In this document: piece by piece, positions 7,459 to 47,091 of the stretch
Position numbering within the stretch: position 1 is the stretch's first letter
Layout of the letters: every line of letters starts with the position of its first letter
Assembly (NCBI GenBank): GCA_032622095.1
Contig: CP136065.1
Span: 155,069,577-155,133,576, forward strand
Direction: 5' to 3'
DNA from: Siphonodentalium dalli
Lineage: Eukaryota; Mollusca; Scaphopoda; Gadilida; Siphonodentaliidae
DNA length: 64,000 nt
Notes under the pieces: generated by a model
What the model was told of the DNA's origin: nothing
Seen by the model: only the letters and a program-made list of their open reading frames with translations
The model's database searches: none
Program-made: the position numbers and the translations under genes

Positions 7459-7846
7459 CTAGCCGATGAGCCCGACGTTGTCCGGGCTATTCAAAAACCA
7501 AATTTCAAGTCGATAGCTCCACCCGTTTCCGAGATCTGGTCTGCGCATGCGCGAAGCTGGCGTGGCACGGGCTCGGTGACCCGATAAAATTCGTATCCGG
7601 GGCAAGATACATTCACATAGCAAATTTCAAGTCGATAGCTCCACCCGTTTCCGAGATCTCGTCTGCGCATGCGCGAAGCGGGCGCCGCACGGGCTCGCCA
7701 ATACGACAACGACGACCGCCTGGTCAAACTACACACACGTACCAAGTTTCGTCCCGATCGGTCGAGAATCGTAGATTTGTATAAATGACATACATACATA
7801 CATACAGACATACAGACAGACAGAGGTCTTCAAAATATATATGAGA
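7459..7846 (-). mobile_element. Non-autonomous Helitron HelA, abutting HelB
   Basis: The minus-strand 5' end is TCTCATATATATTTTGAAGA (complement of 7827-7846). The 3' end is a hairpin (AGCCCGG...CGGGCT), then CATCGG and CTAG, ending at 7459 directly against the TC start of the HelB copy. It contains two 122-bp tandem units with the NRF-1-like palindrome at 7542-7553 and 7664-7675, and a degenerate TACA/CAGA microsatellite near the 5' end. Frames through the repeat are not genes. Confidence 0.88.
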
Positions 7847-19248: not shown

Positions 19249-20169
19249 CTAGAAGGTGACCCGACTTCGTCCGGGCTTTGACCTTGAATTGTCTATTTTG
19301 AAGGCCAAGGTCAATTGGGGTCACGATTTGACCCGTCCAAAACACAGTGCCCGAACAAAAGTACCCGACAAAAGTACCCGTCGAAATCCATCCGGTTTTA
19401 CCCGATTTGACCTTGAATTGACCATTTTGAAGGTCAGGTGGGGTCAAACACCAACACCCCAAAAATGGTGGAAATCGGCCCAGCGGATACCGGGAAATCG
19501 ACCCAGCGGATACCGAGATACCCTATGCATCAAATTTCGTCCGTAAAAATCCGCCAGTTTAACCCGATTTGATTTCCACTCAAGTATATAAACGCGCCTC
19601 ATACACACACGCTCATTAATTATCAAGTTTCAACGTAAAGATAAATTACCATCGGTGCCCGAGATATTGCCAAGACGTATGAAACAGTCAAATGCATCGG
19701 CCGGTTAAGCGTTAACGTGATCTAACGTTATGACCTCTAACGACGTCATAGAAGTTACGCATTGTTTTTATCCTGATGGAAGATAGTACCACTTCTTCTT
19801 GATAATTGAGGCAGATAACTAAAACGGATACATACGCATTATATATCGTTGGAAAGAGGAAACACGAAAGATTCTCACAGTGTCATTATTATGACTGGCA
19901 TTTTATTATTCGCGCTGTTTCGAATCGATTTGTAAGCACCGAACTCAAATGAAAGTCCCGTAACACAGCGTAAAAACAGATTTGACCGGTTTTAAGGTCA
20001 AGGTCACGCCGCACGAACAAATGGACGGGCCCATGTTCGTTCCCGGGTCGAAATACGTGTCCGTACCAAGTTTGGTCGGAATCGGTCCAGCCGTGTTCGA
20101 GTCCATCGCGAACACACACACACACACTCACACACACAAACACACAGATCTTCCAAAATATATAATAGA
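19249..20169 (-). mobile_element. Non-autonomous Helitron HelC, in a triple array
   Basis: Minus-strand 5' end TCTATTATATATTTTGGAAG (complement of 20150-20169). 3' end: hairpin AGCCCGGACGAAGTCGGGT, then CACCTT and CTAG, at 19249, with host A19248 outside (T after CTAG on the element strand). A CA microsatellite at 20111-20145 lies near the 5' end. The interior repeats 'ccgatttgacc' and 'ggtcaaggtca' phrases. No coding is seen. Confidence 0.83.
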
Positions 20170-20541
20170 CTAGCCGATGAGCCCGACGTTGTCCGGGCTA
20201 TTCAAAAACCAAATTTCAAGTCGATAGCTCCACCCGTTTCCGATATCTGGTCTGCGCATGCGCGAAGCTTGCGTCGCACGGGCTCGGCGACCCGATAAAA
20301 ATCGTATCCGGGGCAAGATACATTCACATAGCAAATTTCAAGTCGATAGCTCCACCCGTTTCCGAGATCTCGTCTGCGCATGCGATGCACGGGCGTCGCA
20401 CGGTCTCGCCAATACGACAAGGACGACCGCCTGGTCAAACTACACACACGTACCAAGTTTCGTCCCGATCGGTCGAGAATCGTAGATTTGTATAAATGAC
20501 ATACAGACAGACAAACAGAGGTCTTCAAAATATATATGAGA
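20170..20541 (-). mobile_element. Non-autonomous Helitron HelA, second of triple array
   Basis: Starts with CTAG plus the complement of the AGCCCGG...CGGGCT hairpin, directly against the TC end of HelC. It ends at 20541 with the complement of TCTCATATATATTTTGAAGA. It holds two 122-bp units. One has the NRF-1-like palindrome intact (20253-20264); in the other it is mutated near 20374. Confidence 0.88.
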
Positions 20542-21055
20542 CTAGCCGATGAGCCCGAAGTTGTCCGGGCTATTCAAAAACAAAATTTCAAGTCGATAGC
20601 TCTACCCGTTTCCGAGATCTGGTCTGCGCATGCGCGAAGCTGGCGTCGCACGGGCTCGGCGACCCGATAAAATTCGTATCCGGGGCAAGATACATTCACA
20701 TAGCAAATTTCAAGTCGATAGATCCACCCGTTTCCGAGATCTCGTCTGCGCATGCGCGAAGCTGGTGTCGCACGGGCTCGGCGACCCGATACAATTCGTA
20801 TCCGGGGCAAGATACATTCACATAGCAAATTTCAAGTCGATAACTCCACCCGTTTCCGAGATCTCGTCTGCGCATGCGCGAAGCGGGCGCCGCACGGGCT
20901 CGCCAATACGACAACGTTCACCGCCTGGTCAAACTACACACACGTACCAAGTTTCGTCCCGATCGGTCGAGAATCGTAGATTTGTATAAATGACAGACAG
21001 ACAGATAAACAAACAAACATACATACAGACAGAGGTCTTCAAAATATATATGAGA
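20542..21055 (-). mobile_element. Non-autonomous Helitron HelA, third of triple array
   Basis: Same termini as its neighbour, with host T21056 following. It has three 122-bp tandem units, with NRF-1-like palindromes at 20625-20636, 20747-20758 and 20869-20880 (exactly 122 bp apart). A CAGA/CATA microsatellite sits at the 5' side. Confidence 0.88.
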
Positions 21056-26775: not shown

Positions 26776-26905
26776 GCAACTCACACACTTCAGTGTTCAA
26801 ACTAAACCTAGCAATTTCCCACGTTTGTCACTGATGACCTGGTGACTAAAATAGATCGGTGAACGCAGGACATCTACTATATATTTTTAGAACTACGTAT
26901 ATTAA

Positions 26906-27467
26906 TCTCATATATATTTTGAAGACCTCTGTCTGTATGTCTGTCTGTATGTCTGTATGTCATTTATACAAATCTACGATTCTCGACCGATCGGGACGAA
27001 ACTTGGTACGTGTGTGTAATTTGACCAGGCGGTCGTCGTTGTCGTATTGGCGAGCCCGTGCGGCGCCCACTTCGCGCATGCGCAGACGAGATCTCGGAAA
27101 CGGGTGGAGCTATCGACTTGAAATTTGCTATGTGAATGTATCTTGCCCCGGATACGAATTTTATCGGGTCGCCGAGCCCGTGCGACGCCAGCTTCGCGCA
27201 TGCGCAGACGAGATCTCGGAAACGGGTGGAGCTATCGACTTGAAATTTGGTATGTGAATGTATCTTGCCCCGGATACGAATTTTATCGGGTCGCCGAGCA
27301 CGTGCGACGCCAGCTTCGCACATGCGCAGACCAGATCTATGAAACGGGTATAGCAATCGAATTGAAAATTGTTTTTTGAATAGCCCGGACAACGTCGGGC
27401 TGGGTAGAGCTATCGACTTGAAATTTGGTTTTTGAATAGCCCGGACAACGTCGGGCTCATCGGCTAG
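26906..27467 (+). mobile_element. Non-autonomous Helitron HelA, nested, first
   Basis: 5' TCTCATATATATTTTGAAGA after host A. 3' hairpin AGCCCGGACAACGTCGGGCT, then CATCGG and CTAG, ending 27467. It has about three 122-bp units, with the NRF-1-like palindrome intact at 27073-27084 and 27195-27206 and mutated in the third. A partial duplicated 3' hairpin lies just inside the end. Confidence 0.88.
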
Positions 27468-28259
27468 TCTCATATATATTTTGAAGACCTCTGTCTGTCT
27501 GTATGTCCTTTATAGAATCGAAAACGACTGCACCCATCGAGCTCAAATTTCGTATATAAGTGTAAAAACCCACGGGGATCGTCGACGTCGCGTTTTGGAC
27601 AAGCTCTGAGCACCGATTCTCCACTCCCAATCATCAAAATCACCGCAAACGCCACTTGGGGGGGGGGGGTTAAGGCATCAACGATCTTTATATTGACCAT
27701 ATTCGTAGGTGTTAATGATCAACGCTCTTTATTACAATCGAAGCTGCTCAGCGGATCAGTCTTTGAGGGACGGGTACCATGAATTAATTCATGAAAAACC
27801 AAAAATGGGTGTTGTGCTGTCTTTCATAGGAAGGGAAGGGGGGATTTCATCGGGTCATTTTTCCGCCGATAACAATCGAAGCTGCTAAACGGCTACCCAT
27901 GCGTAAAATACGGATGCAAAACGAAACGCGGAATGCAATTATCTCGATTAAAAAGGCAGAATGGGTTGTTGTGTTATATATGTCATAGGAACAGGGGAAT
28001 TTTTCAGACGAGATCTCGGAAACGGGTGGAGCTATCGACTTGAAATTTGCTATGTGATGTATCTTGCCCCGGATACGAATTTTATCGGGTCGCCGAGCCC
28101 GTGCGACGCAAGCTTCGCGCATGCGCAGACCAGATCTTGGAAACGGGTGGAGCTATCGACTTGAAATTTGCTATGTGACCAGATCTCGGAAACGGGTGGA
28201 GTTATCGACTTGAAATTTGGTTTTTGAATAGCCCGGACAACGTCGGGCTCATCGGCTAG
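27468..28259 (+). mobile_element. Non-autonomous Helitron HelA variant, nested, second
   Basis: Begins TCTCATATATATTTTGAAGA immediately after the CTAG of its neighbour and ends with the same 3' hairpin and CTAG at 28259. The central part is not HelA-like. It resembles HelB and the 57568 element ('agaatcgaaaacg', 'cgtcgcgttttggac'). It includes a G-run at 27658-27670 and AACGCTCTTT at 27721-27730. It is therefore a chimera of a HelB-like middle and HelA ends. One intact NRF-1-like site lies at 28116-28127. Confidence 0.82.
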
Positions 28260-35560: not shown

Positions 35561-35639
35561 ATGGTTTCAAGATTAGTTAATTTTTCGGAAATGCCCTGAT
35601 AAAAGATTCTAGATTTTAATTTTGTTTGTTTCTTTTATG

Positions 35640-36873
35640 CCTTTTTCGCATTAAAAAATCGCAAAATTAACGATTTGTCATATGGCATTTTCTTCATTTC
35701 CCCTATAGCACTTTCCATTTCTTTCTTCAACTGTTTGCACCTATCATCAAACCAAGCTATCTTCTTCCTCTTTTTATTTTTGTTAACATTAACTCTCTTC
35801 GTCGAAGCATTATTAATTGATGTGAGTATCACACTAAGATCACGCGTCACCATTTCCGAGCCACAAGCATCCGCCGGATATTTGTTTGATCTATATTGAT
35901 TAATTTTATTTTGAATAATATTTTGAGAGAAGGCCTCCTTCGCCTTACACGCACTCTCCGCACACCATTTCGTTGTGAAGTTAGCCTCTTTGTAAATATA
36001 TTTAAATGTTTTGTTGTTTACAGTGAACAACTTTAATTTCAAATGTATTGAAAGTTGACAATGGTCGGAAAAGTCAGTTGGAGATTTAATACAGAAGTAA
36101 GTAATATCGGATAGATATCGTTCATGTATCAATATATAGTCGACTGTGTTCGCGCCGTTATAATTTTAGCTGGTAAAGCTTCCGAGCGAATCTCCAAACT
36201 TCCTACCATTTATAACCCGTAATCCAGTCGATTTACACATTGAAAGTAAACATTTTCCAAATGTATTGCATTCTTTATCTAAGGTTGCTCTTTCCTTCAT
36301 AGAGTCAAATGTATAGTTTTCGGGAAGAGAAATATAATTGTCCTCGTCGTATGCAACATAATCGGACCTCCCTCCTGTTCTTGCATTGAAATCACCTCCC
36401 AATATAATTAGTTTATCAGATTCTAAGTCTGTTAAATATTGTTCAATATCTGAACAAATTAAATCTTTCCTATCATTCGTTTTCCAGTAACTTGAATTTT
36501 GAGGCGGTATATACACTGATATAAACATGTTTGTATCCAAGCCAAATATTTTGCCATCAAATTCTACGCTTAGTGCGAAATCTTGCACGTGATTTATTCC
36601 TTTGATGAATTTCTGATATTTAACTCGGCAGAAAAGTGCAATACCGCCTCTTACAGTTTTACCTATATGAGATAGATCAACACATTGGTATCCCGGTAAA
36701 TGTATTGATGCAACATCTTTATGCCATGTTTCGGTTATTGTTATGAAATCGTATCGATCAAGATGTGCAATGAACTCTTGGTCTTCAATTTTATTTACCA
36801 GGCCTTGTGCATTCCACGAAGTATAGCATATATTTCTCACATTGGAAGATTGTAAATGTATATGAGACGTCAT
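35640..36873 (-). pseudogene. LINE ORF2 start: apurinic-like endonuclease
   Basis: ATG at 36873-36871. Endonuclease motifs appear in order: SWNAQG (residues 19-24), TETW (47-50, catalytic Glu), RGGIAL (75-80), GGDFNAR (159-165, catalytic Asp-Asn) and, after one in-frame TAA near 36168, VDYIL and SDH (catalytic Asp-His). A basic linker (NKNKKRKKIAWFDDRCKQLK) follows and the frame is lost at 35640. This nuclease nicks the target site. Apart from the single nonsense codon, about 410 codons are open, making this the best-preserved part of the LINE. Confidence 0.92.
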
Positions 36874-37159
36874 GTTTGCTCTATCTCGTGGATCACCGGA
36901 GACAATTTCGAAAAACTTGATACACCAAAAACTTTTTCTTGTGAAATATTGTTTAAATATTAGATAAGCTTAGAATTGAAATAATCGATCATCTTACTAG
37001 TAGATGAGATTAGATTTTTAAAAATTAAACGTTTTTCCGTTAGCTTGTTGTCAAAACCTATTGAATTCAGCATATACGGATTTTATGATTATGCACAAGT
37101 CTATGTAATTTGTGTAGCGACATTCAACTATTGTAACGCAATATCAACATGTATATTAA

Positions 37160-39801
37160 CAATTTAAAAATTTCCTACTGATGACATCTGAAAATTTAAA
37201 GAGTTGATTTGTAAACATAATCAAGTCTTTTTGTAAATATGAATCACCACTGACATTCTGGTGCGAATTATTTGCAGGCATTCTATTAATTGTCTGTCTT
37301 CTTATTGGCTGACGTTCGTTGTTGAACATCAATTCGGACCTCGGGCGATAGTCCCGCATACCATTCGCATTAACATTCTTACCCATATGTCCTCTGTCTA
37401 TAGAATTCTTCTTGTTACCACACGAAACACACCGCCGTCAGAGCTGTTTCTCCAGTTTGTGACATATTTAATATTTCGAGCCAATACTCTGACCCCATCA
37501 AAGCTCGGGTGCCAATTATCCCAATAAAGATTGCTTCTTATTTCGGATGTTCTAATGTCAACGAATCCCGTGTATTGTCCACGAACGTACAGTTTTATTC
37601 TCGACACACCTCTCCTTAGCATTCATTTGTTTCCTCAACTAGACGATTGCTATAGTTTGAATGCAGAGTTGGCAGGATTGGAGAGAAGCGTATATCAGCA
37701 ACTGAAAGTTTGTCTTTAATTTTATGAATGAGTTCCGTAATTTCTGACTTTTTTGTGTGAATATTATTTCGGCAGCTATTAAAGGCACGTGCGGCCTTAA
37801 TTGTCGAAAATATTCATTTTTGTTCCAAACACCGTAAACAGAAAAACAGTAAAACGCATACAGTTCCGTTCATATATACCATGACCATCGCGTAAACAGC
37901 ATGTTATCATAAAGACCTACTATATTTTACCTAAGCAAGAGCCTGATTGTGTTACAGAAGACAGCACAATGCTACTGGTTAATCACATACAAATGGCATA
38001 AACGCTCTTTATTATTTCCATATCAGGTATTCACCAACAAAGAACGCTCTTTATGTTTACCATCATAATATAAACAAACACCAGAAAAGTAACTTTTTAC
38101 GCTTCTGTTTACATAACAATGGTCAAACACATGACCATAACATACTGTTTATGCGATATTTCTTATTTGTATACGGACAAAGTCTATCTACATTTTGATG
38201 TTCTTTCTGTTTGTGGCGGTTTTTGACGGGTGGGGATATTTTCACAGGATACCCACCGCCAAGGCCAACCGTGTCTTTAATGCCAATATGCACAGTTACT
38301 TTGTTAACATTTCTGAATTTAGCTGCATTGTCATCCTGCAACCACCCAATGAGTCCCCCGATCCTCTGACCCGGACGAAATACAATGTTAACTCTTTCGT
38401 TTTCAACTCTCATTTTATCAGAATTGAGTTTCCTCAAACATGAATCGCCGAGTATCAGATGAAGGGGCTGGTCAGGTTCATTACGATTCTCAAGATATTG
38501 AGAAATTGCAGAGGCGTCAGTCTCGTTAATCACATGTGCACCACTGTCATCCGAGAAATCTTCTTCACATTCACAAGGAATTGACACCAGTGTTTCGTTG
38601 TGTTCGGCTAGCACATCATATTTGTTTGCAATTGGAATTGTGTGTTCAATAATCTCCATCGTTGTCCGATTTTCAGCGATATCCACACTCTGAACGATTA
38701 ATGGCTTATTTCCTGCATTGATCGAAGGTGTTTCCGTTGTGGCGTTCGAGACAGAATTACTTTCAGAAGCACTTCTCGATCCTTCAGTGACTTCTTCAGG
38801 GAAGACACCTGATTCGCGAGTCTGCCATTATGCATTCGTAACTCTTTAGATTCCTGTTCTAATTTAGAGATCTTCTCACCAAGCTCAGATTGTAAGCTTT
38901 CATATCGTTTACTTATCTTCAATTCCAATTCTGCAGTTTTTGCGTTTATGTTGTCAGTCATTTCACTACGAATATCATTAATGGTTTGATGAAAATAGTC
39001 GTTCATTTCTATCCCATCCAGCTTACTTTCTTCCATCATCATATGCATCTCATCAACAGACCGTTTTAACGTTGTGGTAGATATGTAGTCTCCAATATAT
39101 TTCCGAGCCTTTTTATTAACAGTCACACCATGTTTCCTTTTTGGAGTAACAAACAAGACAGATTTACATTGTTTTTGTCAATATCAACGGATGACACATT
39201 TATTTCTTCGTTGCTTTCAGTATTCATTGTGACCTGCGAATTTTGGTTTTGAATAACATCTGCTTGTTCAGTATAATGTATCACAGGTTGAACATTCCCC
39301 GTATCAGCGTGTTCATATTGTTTATCGAGAACAGAATCCAGATTTCTAAGAATTTCCATATTGAATTCCGAATCAAATCCGGACTTGTGAATAACAGGCA
39401 AAATGTTTTTTAGCCACCAAGACACATTCTCTTTTGTTCCTTGCAGCATGATTTTATTTTGTGTACGAATGAGGTGAATAGTGACTCGCCGGGCTTTGGT
39501 TTTCGCAGGTACATTACAATGTCCTCGACTAAATTTCTATCTTTATCACTTGCACATCTCCATATCGCACCACATTTCTCGATAGATTGTTTTTTATTCC
39601 AATATTTGTCCCTGATGTCTTTTTTGTAACATTCAAAACGGTGTGTATCGAGTTCCAATGTTATGCATTTACCTTTGTTTTTAACTTCAATTTTCTCGAA
39701 AGTGTCCATCATTCCGTCTGTTTTCTTTTTTCTGCTTTCTTCACATCCAGCGAATAGTCCCTCTCGTCTGTTACGATGAAATTCTCTTCATTAACATCCA
39801 T
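37160..39801 (-). pseudogene. LINE ORF1 with coiled coil and SGNH-type domain, broken
   Basis: ATG at 39801-39799 begins MDVNEENF. A frameshift follows within 35 codons. Later pieces at 39712-39123 and 39156-38698 give a basic N-terminal part and a heptad-like coiled coil (ELGEKISKLEQESKELR region). The piece at 38686-38290 carries LILGDSCLRKL (SGNH block I, Ser) and VHIG(I)N (block III). After the MITE at 37779-38280 the frame continues, and DNWHPSFDGVRVLA at about 37500-37545 is block V (Asp...His). Esterase-like ORF1 domains are known from CR1-like elements. There are several frameshifts. Confidence 0.82.
37779..38280 (-). mobile_element. TTAA-flanked MITE-1a, copy 3, inside LINE ORF1
   Basis: 502 bp, inverted relative to 1534-2036, between TTAA 37779-37782 and 38277-38280. 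The LINE frame reads ...VHIGI on one side and resumes ...NSCRNN on the other across one TTAA, so the insertion site is known to the base. AACGCTCTTT lies at 38001-38010 and 38043-38052. Confidence 0.93.
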
Positions 39802-42459: not shown

Positions 42460-42750
42460 GCATTCGTAGATAAAATATGTCTCATATTCATGAGATATGT
42501 GCATTCCTGGATAGAACAGTCTGTCATATGTTGGAGATATATGCATTCGTAGATAGAACATGTCTGCCATTGATAGGATATAAGCACTCGTAGATAGAAC
42601 AAATCTGCCATTTATATAAAATATGCATTCGTAGATAGAACATGTCTGCCCAATATAGGAGATATGCATTCGTAGATAGAACATGTCTGCCATTATATGA
42701 AGATATTAGCATTCGTAGATAGAACATCGTTGCCATATATATGATATATA
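42460..42750 (+). repeat. Tandem array, unit about 41 bp, seven copies
   Basis: 'gcattcgtagatagaacat' recurs starting at 42460, 42501, 42543, 42584, 42625, 42666 and 42709, with 'gtctgccat' following in most units. It ends about 40 bp before the Foldback element. Frames through it are repeat artefacts. Confidence 0.9.
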
Positions 42751-42790: not shown

Positions 42791-42798
42791 GTTCCTTC
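42791..42798 (+). repeat. Left 8-bp target-site duplication GTTCCTTC
   Basis: GTTCCTTC immediately precedes GGGACATG. The same octamer follows the right end at 47084-47091. Confidence 0.9.
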
Positions 42799-44080
42799 GG
42801 GACATGACAATCTGCGGGATGGGATGGGATATGGGACAAAACGACAATCTGCGGGAAATAATTTCAAATTGCGTGGGACGGCCGATATCTCGAGGAATAC
42901 AGGGCGCAGGGGGCTCATTTTGGTGTTTAACGAAAGGTCCACATTCGCCCTACTCACACATATTAACCCCACCACTGACCGGACATCAGAAGTTGCATTA
43001 TTTGATCGACAACTGACCTAACATGGGGTGGAATTTGGGATAGAATGACAATCTGCGGGACAGGATTTTCAAATTGCGTGGGACGGCCGAAATCTCGAGG
43101 AATACAACGCGAAGAGGGCTACTTTTGGTGTCTAACGAAAGGTCCACATTCGCCCTATCCACACATATTAACCCCGCCACTGACCGGACACCGGAAGTTA
43201 CATTATTCGGTCGACAACTGACGTAACATAAAATTCCACAAACACGAAAAACTGCGTTCGACATTAATGTTTAGAATTTAGATTTCTCGTTGATTACAAT
43301 AGCAAACAACAAGTTTTAAGTATCAAATAACGCAGTGGAATACTGTGCATTCGTTTTTAGCTACAATATGGCTGTTTTAGTGCGAATATTGTAATAGCGA
43401 ACACGCAAACACGCTCCGATAAAACAGCTAAAAATAGACTCGATGTTTACAATTACAGGATCGATTTCAGCCGGTATATTCAATATAATGGGGCGTATAG
43501 TATATCAAAATGTAGAATTAGACACGGGGAATGTATTATTTTCCATATGGGTCCACCAGGCGGTGAAATTGTTGCAGAAATTCGCTCCAAGATATTCTCA
43601 CTTATTTTTATTTCAGTTGTGACTAAAAGCCCAGATGCCGGAGACCAGCGACTAAAACCCAAGTTACAAAATATATCAACTGGTTTGAACAAATGAATAT
43701 GTCAATGGTAAGACTATTCAAAAGAATATTCAAATCAAATAGTGTTTATAGACTTAAAAACTTATGTATCCGCCATTCATATGCGGTGGAGGTTCTCATA
43801 TTATCTGCCAGTCATACGCGGGGGAGATTCTCATATGAACATATTATCTGCCGGTCATACGGGGTGGAGGTTCATATTATCCGCCGGTCATACGCGAGGG
43901 AAGTTCTCATATTATCCTCCGGTCATACGCGGGGGAGGTTCTGATATGAACATATTATCTGCCGGTCATACGCGGTGGAGGTTCATATTACCCACCGTCA
44001 TACGCGAGGGAGGTTCTCATATTATCCTCTGGTCATACGTTGGGGAGGTTCTCATATGAACATATTATCCGCCGGTCATA
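42799..44080 (+). repeat. Left inverted arm of the Foldback element
   Basis: In order: tip with two 204-bp units (42799-43240), middle (43241-43769) and tandem array (43770-44080). Mirrored by 47083 down to about 45800. Confidence 0.88.
43770..44080 (+). repeat. Left tandem array of 33/35/43-bp units
   Basis: Units read GGTCATACGCG...GGAGGTTC then CATATTATCYGCC, in 33-, 35- and 43-bp versions that alternate to give a 111-bp higher-order repeat. The array breaks at 44080/44081, where the orientation inverts. Confidence 0.9.
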
Positions 44081-46112
44081 TCCTCCCTCGCGTGTGACCG
44101 GTGGATAATATGAGAACCTCCCTCGCATATGACCAGCGGATAATATGAACCTCCACCGCGTATGACCGGCAGATAATATGTTCATATCAGAACCTCCCCC
44201 ACCTATGACCGAAGGATAATATGAGAACTTCCCTCGCGTATGACCGGCGGATAATATGAACCTCCACCGCGTATGACCGGCGGATAATATGTTCATATGA
44301 GAACCTCCACCGCGTATGACTGGTGGATAATATGAACCTCCACCGCGTATGACCGGCAGATAATATGTTCATATGAGAACCTCCCCTACATATGACCGGA
44401 GGATAATATGAGGACCTCCCTCGCGTATGACCGGTGGATAATATGAGAACCTCCCTCGCATATGACCGGCAGATAATATGTTCATATGAGAACCTTCACT
44501 GCGTATGACCGGTGGATAATATGAACCTCCACCGTGTATGACCGGCGGATAATATGTTCATATCAGAACCTCCCCCACATATGACCGAAGGATAATGAGA
44601 ACTTCCCTCGTGTATGATCGGCGGATAATATGAACCTCCACCGCGTATGACCGGCGGATAATATGTTCATATGAGAACCTCCCCAACGTATGACCGGAGG
44701 ATAATATGAGAACCTCCCTCGCGTATGACCAGTGGATAATATGAGAACCTCCCTCGCGAATGACCGGCGGATAATATGAACCTCCACCACGTATGACCGG
44801 CGCATAATATGTTCATATCAGAACCTCCCCCACATATGATCGGAGGATAATATGAGAACTTCCTTCGCGTATGACCAGCAGATAATATTATCCTCCACCG
44901 CGTATGACCGGCGGATAATATGTTCATATGAGAACCTCCACCGCGTATGACCGGTGGATAATATGAACCTCCACCGCGTATGACCGGCGAATAATATGTT
45001 CATATACGAACCTCCCCCACGTATGACCGGAGGATAATATGAGAACCTCCCTCTCGTATGACCGGCGGATAATATGAACCTCCACTGCGTATGACCGGCA
45101 GATAATATGTTCATATGAGAACCTCCCCTATGTATGACCGGAGGATAATATGAGAACCTCCCTCACGTATAACCGGTGGATAATATGAGAACCTCCCTCG
45201 CGTATGATCGGCGGATAATATGTTCATATGAGAACCTCCCCATCGTATGACCGGAGGATAATAAGAAAACTTCCCTCGCGTATGACCGGTGGATAATATG
45301 AACCTCCACTGCGTATGACCGGCAGATAATATGTTCATATCAGAACCTCCCCCGCGTATGACTGGGGGATAATATGAAAACTTCCCTCGCGTATGACCGG
45401 CGGATAATATGAACCTCCACCGCGTAAGACCGGCAGATAATATGTTCATATGAGAACCTCCCCTACGTATGACCGGAGGATAATATGAGAACCTCCCTCG
45501 CGTATGACCGGTGGATAATATGAGAACCTCCCTCGCGTATGACCGGCGGATAATATGTTCATATGAGAACCTCCACCGCGTATGACCGGTGGATAATATG
45601 AACCTCCACCGCGTATGACCGGCGGATAATATGTTCATATCAGAACCTCCCCCACATATGATCGGAGGATAATATGAGAACTTCCCTCGCGTATGACCGG
45701 CGGATAATATGAACCTCCACCGCATATGACCAGCGGATAATATGTTCATATGAGAACCTCCACCGTGTATGACCGGTGAATAATATGAACCTCCACCACG
45801 TATGACCGGCTAATAATATGTTCATATCAGAACCTCCCCCACGTATGACCGGAGGATAATATGAGAACCCCCCTCGCATATGACCGGTGGATAATATGAA
45901 CCTCCACCGCGTATGACCGGCAGATAATATGTTCATATCAGATCCTCCCCGCGTATGACTGGAGGATAATATGAAAACTTCCCTCGCGTATAACCGGCGA
46001 ATAATATGAACCTCCATCGCGTATGACCGGCAGATAATATGTTCATATGAGAACCTCCCCCGCGTATGACTGGCAGATAATATGAGAACTTCCACCGCAT
46101 ATATGAATGGCG
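44081..46112 (-). repeat. Right tandem array of the same units, inverted, about 2 kb
   Basis: The same units in opposite orientation, about six times longer than the left array, with the 111-bp higher-order repeat visible in long runs. It generates long open frames on the minus strand with repeated SAGHTRWRF and YYPPVIRGGGS peptides. Unit lengths divisible by 3 as a set explain the openness; I do not call a protein. Confidence 0.9.
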
Positions 46113-47083
46113 GACACATAAATTTTTAAGTCTATAAACACTATTTGATTTGAATATTCTTTTTAATAGTCTTACCATTGACATATTCATTCGTTCAAAC
46201 CAGTTGATCTATTTTATAACTTGGCTTTTAGTCGCTGGGCTCCGGCATCTGGGCTTTTAGTCACAACTGAAATAAAAATAAGTGCGAATATCTTGGAGCG
46301 AATTTCTGCAACAATTTCACCGCCTGGTGGACCCATTTGGAAACAAATACATTCCCTGTGTCTAATTCTACATTTTGATATACTATACGCCCCATTATAT
46401 TGAATATACCGGCTGAAATCGATCCTGTAATTGTAAACATCGAGTCTATTTTTAGCTGTTTTATCGGAGCGTGTTTGCGTATTCGCCATTACAATATTCG
46501 CACTAAAACAGCCATATTGTAGCTAAAACGAATGCACAGTATTCCACTGCGTTATTTGATACCTAAAACTTGTTGTTTGCTAGTGTATTCAACGAGAAAT
46601 CTAAATTCTAAACATTAATGTCGAACGCAGTTTTTCGTGTTTGTGGAATTTTATGTTAGGTCAGTTGTCGACCGAATAATGTAACTTCCGGTGTCCGGTC
46701 AGTGGCGGGGTTAATATGTGTGGATAGGGCGAATGTGGACCTTTCGTTAGAAACCAAAAGTAGCCCTCTATGCGCTGTATTCCTCGAGCTATCGGCCGTC
46801 CCACGCAATTTGAAAATCCTGTCCCGCAGATTGTCATTCTATCCCAAATTCCACCCCATGTTAGGTCAGTTGTCGATCAAATAATGCAACTTCTGGTGTT
46901 TGGTTAGTGGCGGGGTTAATATGTTTGGATAGGGCGAACGTGGGCCTTTCGTTAGACACCAAAATGAGCCCCCTGCGCCCTGTATTCCTCGATATATCGG
47001 CCGTCCCACGCAATTTGAAATTATGTCCCGCAGATTGTCGTTTTGTCCCATATCCCATCCCATCCCGCAGATTGTCATGTCCC
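46113..47083 (-). repeat. Right inverted arm (middle and tip)
   Basis: Mirror of 43769-42799, including the two ~204-bp tip units and the terminal CATGTCCC. Confidence 0.88.
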
Positions 47084-47091
47084 GTTCCTTC
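47084..47091 (+). repeat. Right 8-bp target-site duplication GTTCCTTC
   Basis: Perfect direct copy of 42791-42798. Confidence 0.9.

Follow-up and report, generated by a model that had tools for sequence, protein, structure and literature searches.

What moves a transposon that encodes no transposase of its own is the question raised by a locus of the scaphopod mollusc Siphonodentalium dalli (assembly GCA_032622095.1, contig CP136065.1). The stretch analysed, hereafter the window, covers 64,000 nucleotides (positions 155,069,577 to 155,133,576, forward strand) and contains a complete, non-coding foldback element of 4,285 bp at window positions 42799–47083. The element is very probably a non-autonomous, foldback-type member of the MULE (Mutator-like) family, and its ends are shared with a transposase-bearing copy in the same genome.

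Structure and insertion site of the element

The element starts with GGGACATG at 42799 and finishes with CATGTCCC at 47083, and the octamer GTTCCTTC stands on both sides of it. The empty site was searched for with the joined window flanks (207 bp), for which 40 of 695 candidates were scored; these comprised the two halves of the window locus and 38 other matches. All 38 listed non-self matches crossed the insertion point unbroken, over 40–50 bp at 92–100% identity, and extended 7–17 bp past the octamer on the right side. As 24 of them were 100% identical, each of these carries one exact GTTCCTTC, and since all 38 run straight across the insertion point, the insertion of the element took place in a repeat and created an 8-bp duplication. 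The original prediction of a complete element with exact boundaries and a perfect 8-bp target-site duplication (TSD) agrees with this empty site. A 41-bp tandem repeat of about seven copies (42460–42749) lies immediately left of the insertion site.

The outer arms were recovered as inverted blocks of 560 and 428 nt with 96% complementarity, followed by an array that flips orientation (Table 1). Each arm consists of two tip repeats of ~205 bp, a middle module of ~537 bp and then the array of 35/111-bp units, as the modular division proposed earlier had it, and of the array 314 bp have one orientation and ~2,030 bp the opposite one. Long modular inverted repeats with tandem units, which define the foldback architecture, form most of the element. 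The turnaround junction was present, with at most three substitutions, in 8 of the 14 copies fetched, so many array copies seem to be descended from one asymmetric founder, the long side varying in length.

The stop-to-stop frames of at least 90 amino acids (aa) in the element are array translations (up to 232 aa) and frames of the middle and tip modules (up to 111 aa), and two frames (136 and 148 aa) extend beyond its right end. Four of the element's frames compared with Pfam gave nothing above any cut-off, and no Rfam match was obtained in the window at the gathering thresholds. The earlier statement that no transposase is encoded stands.

Table 1. Modules, target-site duplications and candidate CG-1 sites of the foldback element (window positions)
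Feature	Position	Strand	Evidence
Left TSD GTTCCTTC	42791..42798	+	Perfect copy on the right; empty site
Outer left tip repeat, terminus GGGACATGACAATCTGCGGG	42799..43024	+	Repeat and inverted-block analysis; 40-bp end with 599 + 598 genome matches
GCGTGG in outer left tip, within the longest conserved run of the tip repeat; candidate CG-1 site	42871..42876	+	
Inner left tip repeat	43025..43229	+	Repeat and inverted-block analysis
GCGTGG in inner left tip; candidate CG-1 site	43076..43081	+	
Left middle module	43230..43766	+	First 499–506 bp 90.6–92.9% identical in transposase-bearing copies
Short array half, 313–314 bp, 35/111-bp units	43767..44080	+	
Long array half, opposite orientation	44081..46115	-	Turnaround junction common to 8/14 fetched copies
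Right middle module	46116..46652	-	
Inner right tip repeat	46653..46857	-	
GCGTGG (reverse strand) in inner right tip; candidate CG-1 site	46801..46806	-	
Outer right tip repeat, ends CATGTCCC	46858..47083	-	
GCGTGG (reverse strand) in outer right tip; candidate CG-1 site	47006..47011	-	
Right TSD GTTCCTTC	47084..47091	+	Perfect copy on the left; empty site

Family size and target preference

The 40-bp end of the element, at up to three mismatches, matched the genome (2.23 Gb, nine contigs) 599 times in the forward and 598 times in the reverse orientation, and its reversed control gave 0 matches. The window family has hundreds of copies in the genome, and this copy did prove able to seed it, as had been anticipated. 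A second end type, GCGGAATGGGATGGAATATGG, gave 206 + 191 matches at up to two mismatches; the counts of the two types may overlap.

A perfect 8-bp duplication was found in 12 of the 14 copies fetched from C1 (exceptions L014 and L020). The pairing of adjacent +/- ends within 25 kb, based on the 100 C1 ends listed out of 874 ends, yielded 19 pairs, many of them the same copies as among the 14, with perfect octamers in 16 and at most one mismatch in 18. The remaining pair was a mispairing, and its nearer partner, missed through the first letter of the pattern, gives CAAAAATC on both sides (L008). Second-type copies with matching octamers were also found (L033, L034, L036, X7 and C6). The copies were retrieved by the GGGACATG pattern and therefore cannot themselves show where the ends begin; the position of the octamer, directly outside GGGACATG in the perfect pairs, does show it. 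The right end of the C6 copy, located by alignment and not by the pattern, has one base changed, and the right tip of X1 has lost its first 8 bases.

Over 72 distinct octamers the target preference was C-A-n4-T-G. The bias at positions 1 and 2 reached p values of 1e-9 and 2e-8 when both orientations of every octamer entered the count, and of 6e-5 and 2e-4 once the chi-square was halved for double counting. Seven C1 ends (47385091, 63316729, 63694269, 64592786, 179649796, 180218824 and 193591095) have one 10-bp flank, ATCGGACGGC, beside the tip (in the first, ATCGAACGGC), a sign either of a composite repeat or of tips cut short by another repeat.

Transposase-bearing relatives

The original prediction had proposed a search for an autonomous relative with the same terminal inverted repeat, and transposase-bearing copies were found at C6, C5 and C7 by tracing array-free copies through the inner arm. 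The C6 copy (C6:183134507-183152166, 17,660 bp) is flanked on both sides by the 8-bp TSD TATTATTT, has tips and arms closely similar to those of the window element and contains an open frame of 1,083 aa encoding a MULE transposase. Its left arm measures ~1.4 kb against the arm sequence also borne by its right end. Proteins 99% and 98% identical to that of C6 are encoded beside right arms at C5:134736976 and C7:76314405 in uninterrupted open reading frames (ORFs) of 1,171 and 1,176 aa, respectively. The right tip of the C7 copy is of the window type, with 95.6% identity over 226 bp in the first tip repeat, the same terminal sequence and 92.9% identity over 506 bp in the middle module.

A genome search with the C6 protein (42 of 1,953 candidates scored, 58 matches) revealed more than 30 further loci at 36–56% identity and one broken copy at 81%; a search with PF10551 alone had not exposed the transposase partner. 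Three relatives were analysed together with the C6, C5 and C7 copies: fam5 (C5:34853294, L047/L050), fam3 (C3:73781704, L048/L051) and fam4 (C4:266098148, L049/L052). Another relative, at 47% identity (C3:279864279-279867272), lies ~4 kb from a second-type element (C3:279871178-279875056), a proximity that is probably due to chance.

The domain order of the transposase is CG-1 (the DNA-binding domain of CAMTA), MULE DDE, Ulp1-like and a PHD-like finger. The cut-off of the MULE domain PF10551 (27.6) was exceeded in all six ORFs (C6 35.1, C5 35.4, C7 35.1, fam5 30.3, fam3 29.1 and fam4 29.0). Peptidase_C48 (cut-off 20.7) was above it in C6 and C7, just below it in C5 (20.5) and below it in the three relatives (15.4–16.1). 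The Pfam PHD profile scored 12.9–16.7 bits in five of the six ORFs, below the cut-off of 24, with C4HC3 spacing recognised by eye in the same five; Pfam did not match PHD in fam4. A CxC...CxH motif, which we take to be SWIM-like, and the presumed DDE residues were picked out by eye, and Pfam did not report SWIM in the transposase ORFs.

CG-1 (PF03859, cut-off 23.5) was matched in C5 (26.6), C7 (26.7) and fam3 (29.1), and in fam4 it scored 20.0 on a fragment and 29.7 in the genome search; it was not matched in fam5, for which a 140-aa fragment alone was available. Because fam3 and fam4 resemble one another closely, the domain is placed on two independent lineages. Among the four matches listed in the genome-wide CG-1 search, only one was a transposase locus (C4:266097932), and the alignment of the N-terminal part matched no solved structure.

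A 137/271-bp minisatellite starts at the stop codon in C6 (Tandem Repeats Finder) and, by alignment, in C5, and 60–75 bp after it in C7 (alignment). The ORF of fam5 is followed at ~0.3 kb by a 305-bp repeat; for fam3 and fam4, longer tandem repeats occur at distances of more than 2 kb and may be unrelated.

Derivatives of the transposase-bearing copies

Three copies, L034, X1 and X7, are 98–99.9% identical to the C6 copy over kilobases and have lost the transposase gene wholly or almost wholly. Among adjacent pairs of second-type ends (100 listed ends), 16 of 40 span 3,876–3,882 bp, which indicates that one deletion form spread at constant size. In the array-free copy B16, window-type tips are combined with the inner arm found in the transposase copies, and an internal segment, bounded by 149-bp inverted repeats, has the opposite orientation to that in L034. 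L036, compared with B16 alone, is 96–98% identical to it. The most plausible reading of the window copy is a non-autonomous derivative in which the outer arms were kept and the interior was replaced by a back-to-back array.

Three array-bearing or array-free copies were rejected as carriers of the gene. B10 and B19, chosen by size, are array-bearing and contain no transposase-like ORF among frames of at least 150 aa, and B16 has none among ORFs of at least 75 aa; its long interspersed nuclear element (LINE) ORFs, named by eye, were taken as an insertion. An array-free element (L029+L030, C1:151968495-151985154) has its internal segment inverted between 149-bp inverted repeats and carries an open 1,118-aa LINE reverse-transcriptase-like ORF, named by eye. 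Within one long element on C1 at ~112.37–112.38 Mb (L039+L037), a 5.9-kb internal segment is present twice with 99.9% identity. Long copies also contain an SGNH/GDSL-hydrolase-like ORF (C6:183145238-183145942; L039 4176–4814, Lipase_GDSL_2 E 0.0024, below cut-off) and KptA/Tpt1-like fragments, likewise below cut-off, which may be cargo or accessory genes.

Comparison with known elements

The foldback elements FB of Drosophila and TU of the sea urchin have modular inverted repeats with tandem units, as here, a likeness of architecture alone. The TSD of FB is 9 bp and that of the present family 8 bp; the outer domain of TU is composed of 15-bp tandem repeats, whereas the outer units here are ~205 bp. 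For hAT elements the TSD bias is nTnnnnAn, and this superfamily was rejected as the bias of the window family is CAnnnnTG and the ends differ. P elements and Galileo were rejected likewise, with no THAP or P-element family among the Pfam matches of the transposase copies. The foldback reading of the original prediction holds for the architecture of a complete non-coding DNA transposon; beyond it, the transposase-bearing relatives turned out to be MULEs resembling Rehavkus.

The window element, the C6 copy and the paired copies have TSDs of 8 bp, within the range of 8–11 bp given for MULEs (PMC6446971). Rehavkus elements have a MULE-related transposase, a PHD finger (here a PHD-like finger that scores below the Pfam cut-off) and a minisatellite before the 3' terminal inverted repeat (TIR), the MULE transposase and the minisatellite resembling the copies described here, together with 9-bp TSDs and TIRs of 26–400 bp (PMC6446971), unlike the 8-bp TSDs and the ~1.4-kb arms of C6. 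Rehavkus-1_TC has short tandem arrays of 164-bp repeats in its inverted termini (PMC10218199). As the PHD-like finger and the minisatellite fit and the TSD and TIR length differ, the lineage was filed under MULE, and we call it Rehavkus-like, not Rehavkus proper, a likeness by description alone; the passages describing Rehavkus in these two sources mention neither CG-1 nor Ulp1. Moreover, aphid Phantom elements also have a minisatellite after the ORF (PMC6446971), so this feature is not unique to Rehavkus.

The foldback shape has been reported in different superfamilies, P in Galileo (PMC3688188) and MULE in Tm1 (PMC3169594). The Tm1 Mutator/Foldback elements of root-knot nematodes combine composite foldback TIRs, non-coding and coding members per genome and a MULE transposase, as here, although their TSD is 9 bp and their transposase belongs to the Phantom subclass (PMC3169594). 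Galileo has foldback-like long repetitive TIRs with several demonstrated transposase binding sites, but its transposase is of the P type with a THAP domain, in contrast to the MULE with CG-1 found here (PMC3688188). Tetris of Drosophila virilis, compared by description alone, is non-coding and has long TIRs with ~220-bp internal tandem repeats and TSDs of 8–10 bp; its authors found no transposase-coding partner (PMC4079207). Foldback elements are often described without their mobilising enzyme, Tetris being one example (PMC4079207). The original prediction likewise considered such enzymes poorly known outside flies, and that view can now be qualified by a strong putative candidate in the same genome. 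An abundant foldback family with exact ends, intermediates and transposase-bearing relatives occurs here in one assembly, so that ordinary binding and excision tests can be designed.

Mobilisation of the window element

The CG-1/MULE transposase is a strong candidate for mobilising window-type copies in trans. It would attach to the tip repeats, where CG-1 may recognise the conserved GCGTGG, and bring both tips together; cutting at GGGACATG and insertion with an 8-bp stagger would follow, with CAnnnnTG targets preferred. Since the interior is dispensable, deletion forms and array-bearing forms could multiply in trans, and the array could lengthen or shorten without constraint, the presumed routes being slippage, unequal exchange or a processing of the long inverted repeat.

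Several observations weigh against this explanation. No one copy combines every feature: C6 is complete at its two ends and flanked by a TSD, yet the frame of its N-terminal (CG-1) part differs from that of the rest, and no left arm was found for C5 and C7 in the ~20 kb and ~19 kb upstream that were examined. The upstream stretch of C7 contains a 100-N assembly gap (C7:76309471-76309570), and the octamer to match at any C7 left end is CTATTATA. The transposase copies have the tips and middle of the window element but not its array, and the tips of C6 and C5 are of the second subtype (91–92% and 90% identical to the window tip, respectively). Finally, the 20 MULE-domain matches on C1 are all separated by 142 kb or more from the C1 ends (100 listed), a weak negative because the distances come from 150 scored PF10551 matches, a list without the C5, C6 and C7 copies.

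These gaps leave some room for mobilisation by another transposase, not seen here, that acts on the same tips, in which case the CG-1/MULE copies would be just a sister lineage: for C7, whose tip is of the window type, the assembled sequence examined contains no left end, C6 and C5 have tips of the other subtype and the genome holds many further MULE relatives. The close match between the C7 and window tips, including the terminal sequence, and the presence in B16 of the transposase copies' inner arm behind window-type tips make this explanation improbable. It is still less likely that the element belongs to the FB/TU lineage, unrelated to MULEs, and that the MULE gene is captured cargo. Long copies do contain other interior pieces (the SGNH-like ORF and LINE-like fragments), so cargo may be picked up; yet 8-bp TSDs and long TIRs suit MULEs (8–11 bp, PMC6446971), the gene adjoins the minisatellite and right arm in all three near-identical copies, and the minisatellite of fam5 likewise follows its ORF closely. 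Assemblies readily go wrong at long inverted repeats and arrays, and the C7 copy has a gap, but an inverted segmental duplication or an assembly artefact instead of a transposon is hardly credible in view of the balanced numbers of forward and reverse ends, the octamers that match within each site and differ between sites, and the empty site. The preferred reading therefore remains a non-autonomous MULE of the foldback type.

CG-1 as a candidate end-recognition domain

The conserved tip motif suggests CG-1 as a candidate end-recognition domain. The longest run conserved at ≥95% across 87 tip units is ATTTCAAATTGCGTGG. On both strands of the tip-repeat consensus the only CG(C/T)G core lies in this run, and each of the four tip repeats of the window element has a single GCGTGG, with no further copy elsewhere in the element. 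A parallel is suggested with Galileo, in which the transposase binds tandem repeats of the TIRs (PMC3688188). The coincidence is weak alone, as a random 6-mer is estimated to fall in the conserved run about 1 time in 18. The motif fits the CG(C/T)G core and not (A/C)CGTGT (PMC10417383). A further, tentative possibility, which we consider rather doubtful, is that this MULE lineage finds its DNA by CG-1, that the foldback tips are arrays of CG-1 sites and that the domain shares ancestry with that of CAMTA. If true, it would explain foldback arms as multi-site docking platforms, and the conserved site per tip repeat offers a direct test of the purpose of long repetitive TIRs; if confirmed, CG-1 on a transposase would tie an old eukaryotic transcription-factor domain to mobile DNA.

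The array itself was considered as a CG-1 platform, CGCG being ~10 times denser in it than in the rest of the window. This reading was not supported: conservation at the CGCG positions is lower than at adjacent positions, and no CGCG is present in the minisatellites of C6, C7 and L047. No link of CG-1 to a MULE transposase was found among the titles and abstract openings listed, Repbase and subscription papers lying outside the search; the word transposase appears once in PMC13290587, in its glossary, and CG-1 and CAMTA are absent from PMC10027918.

Other features of the window

LINE remains on the minus strand (35638–36969 and 38701–39787) include an endonuclease domain (Exo_endo_phos above cut-off), with an ORF1-like stretch recognised by eye upstream of it. 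Repeated DNA is present at 7470–7829, 19996–20989 and 26850–28152, where the frames read NFKSIAPPVSEI..., and a 45-bp tandem unit with the NFKSIAPPVSEI reading also occurs on another contig (L048 6365–6454, reverse strand).

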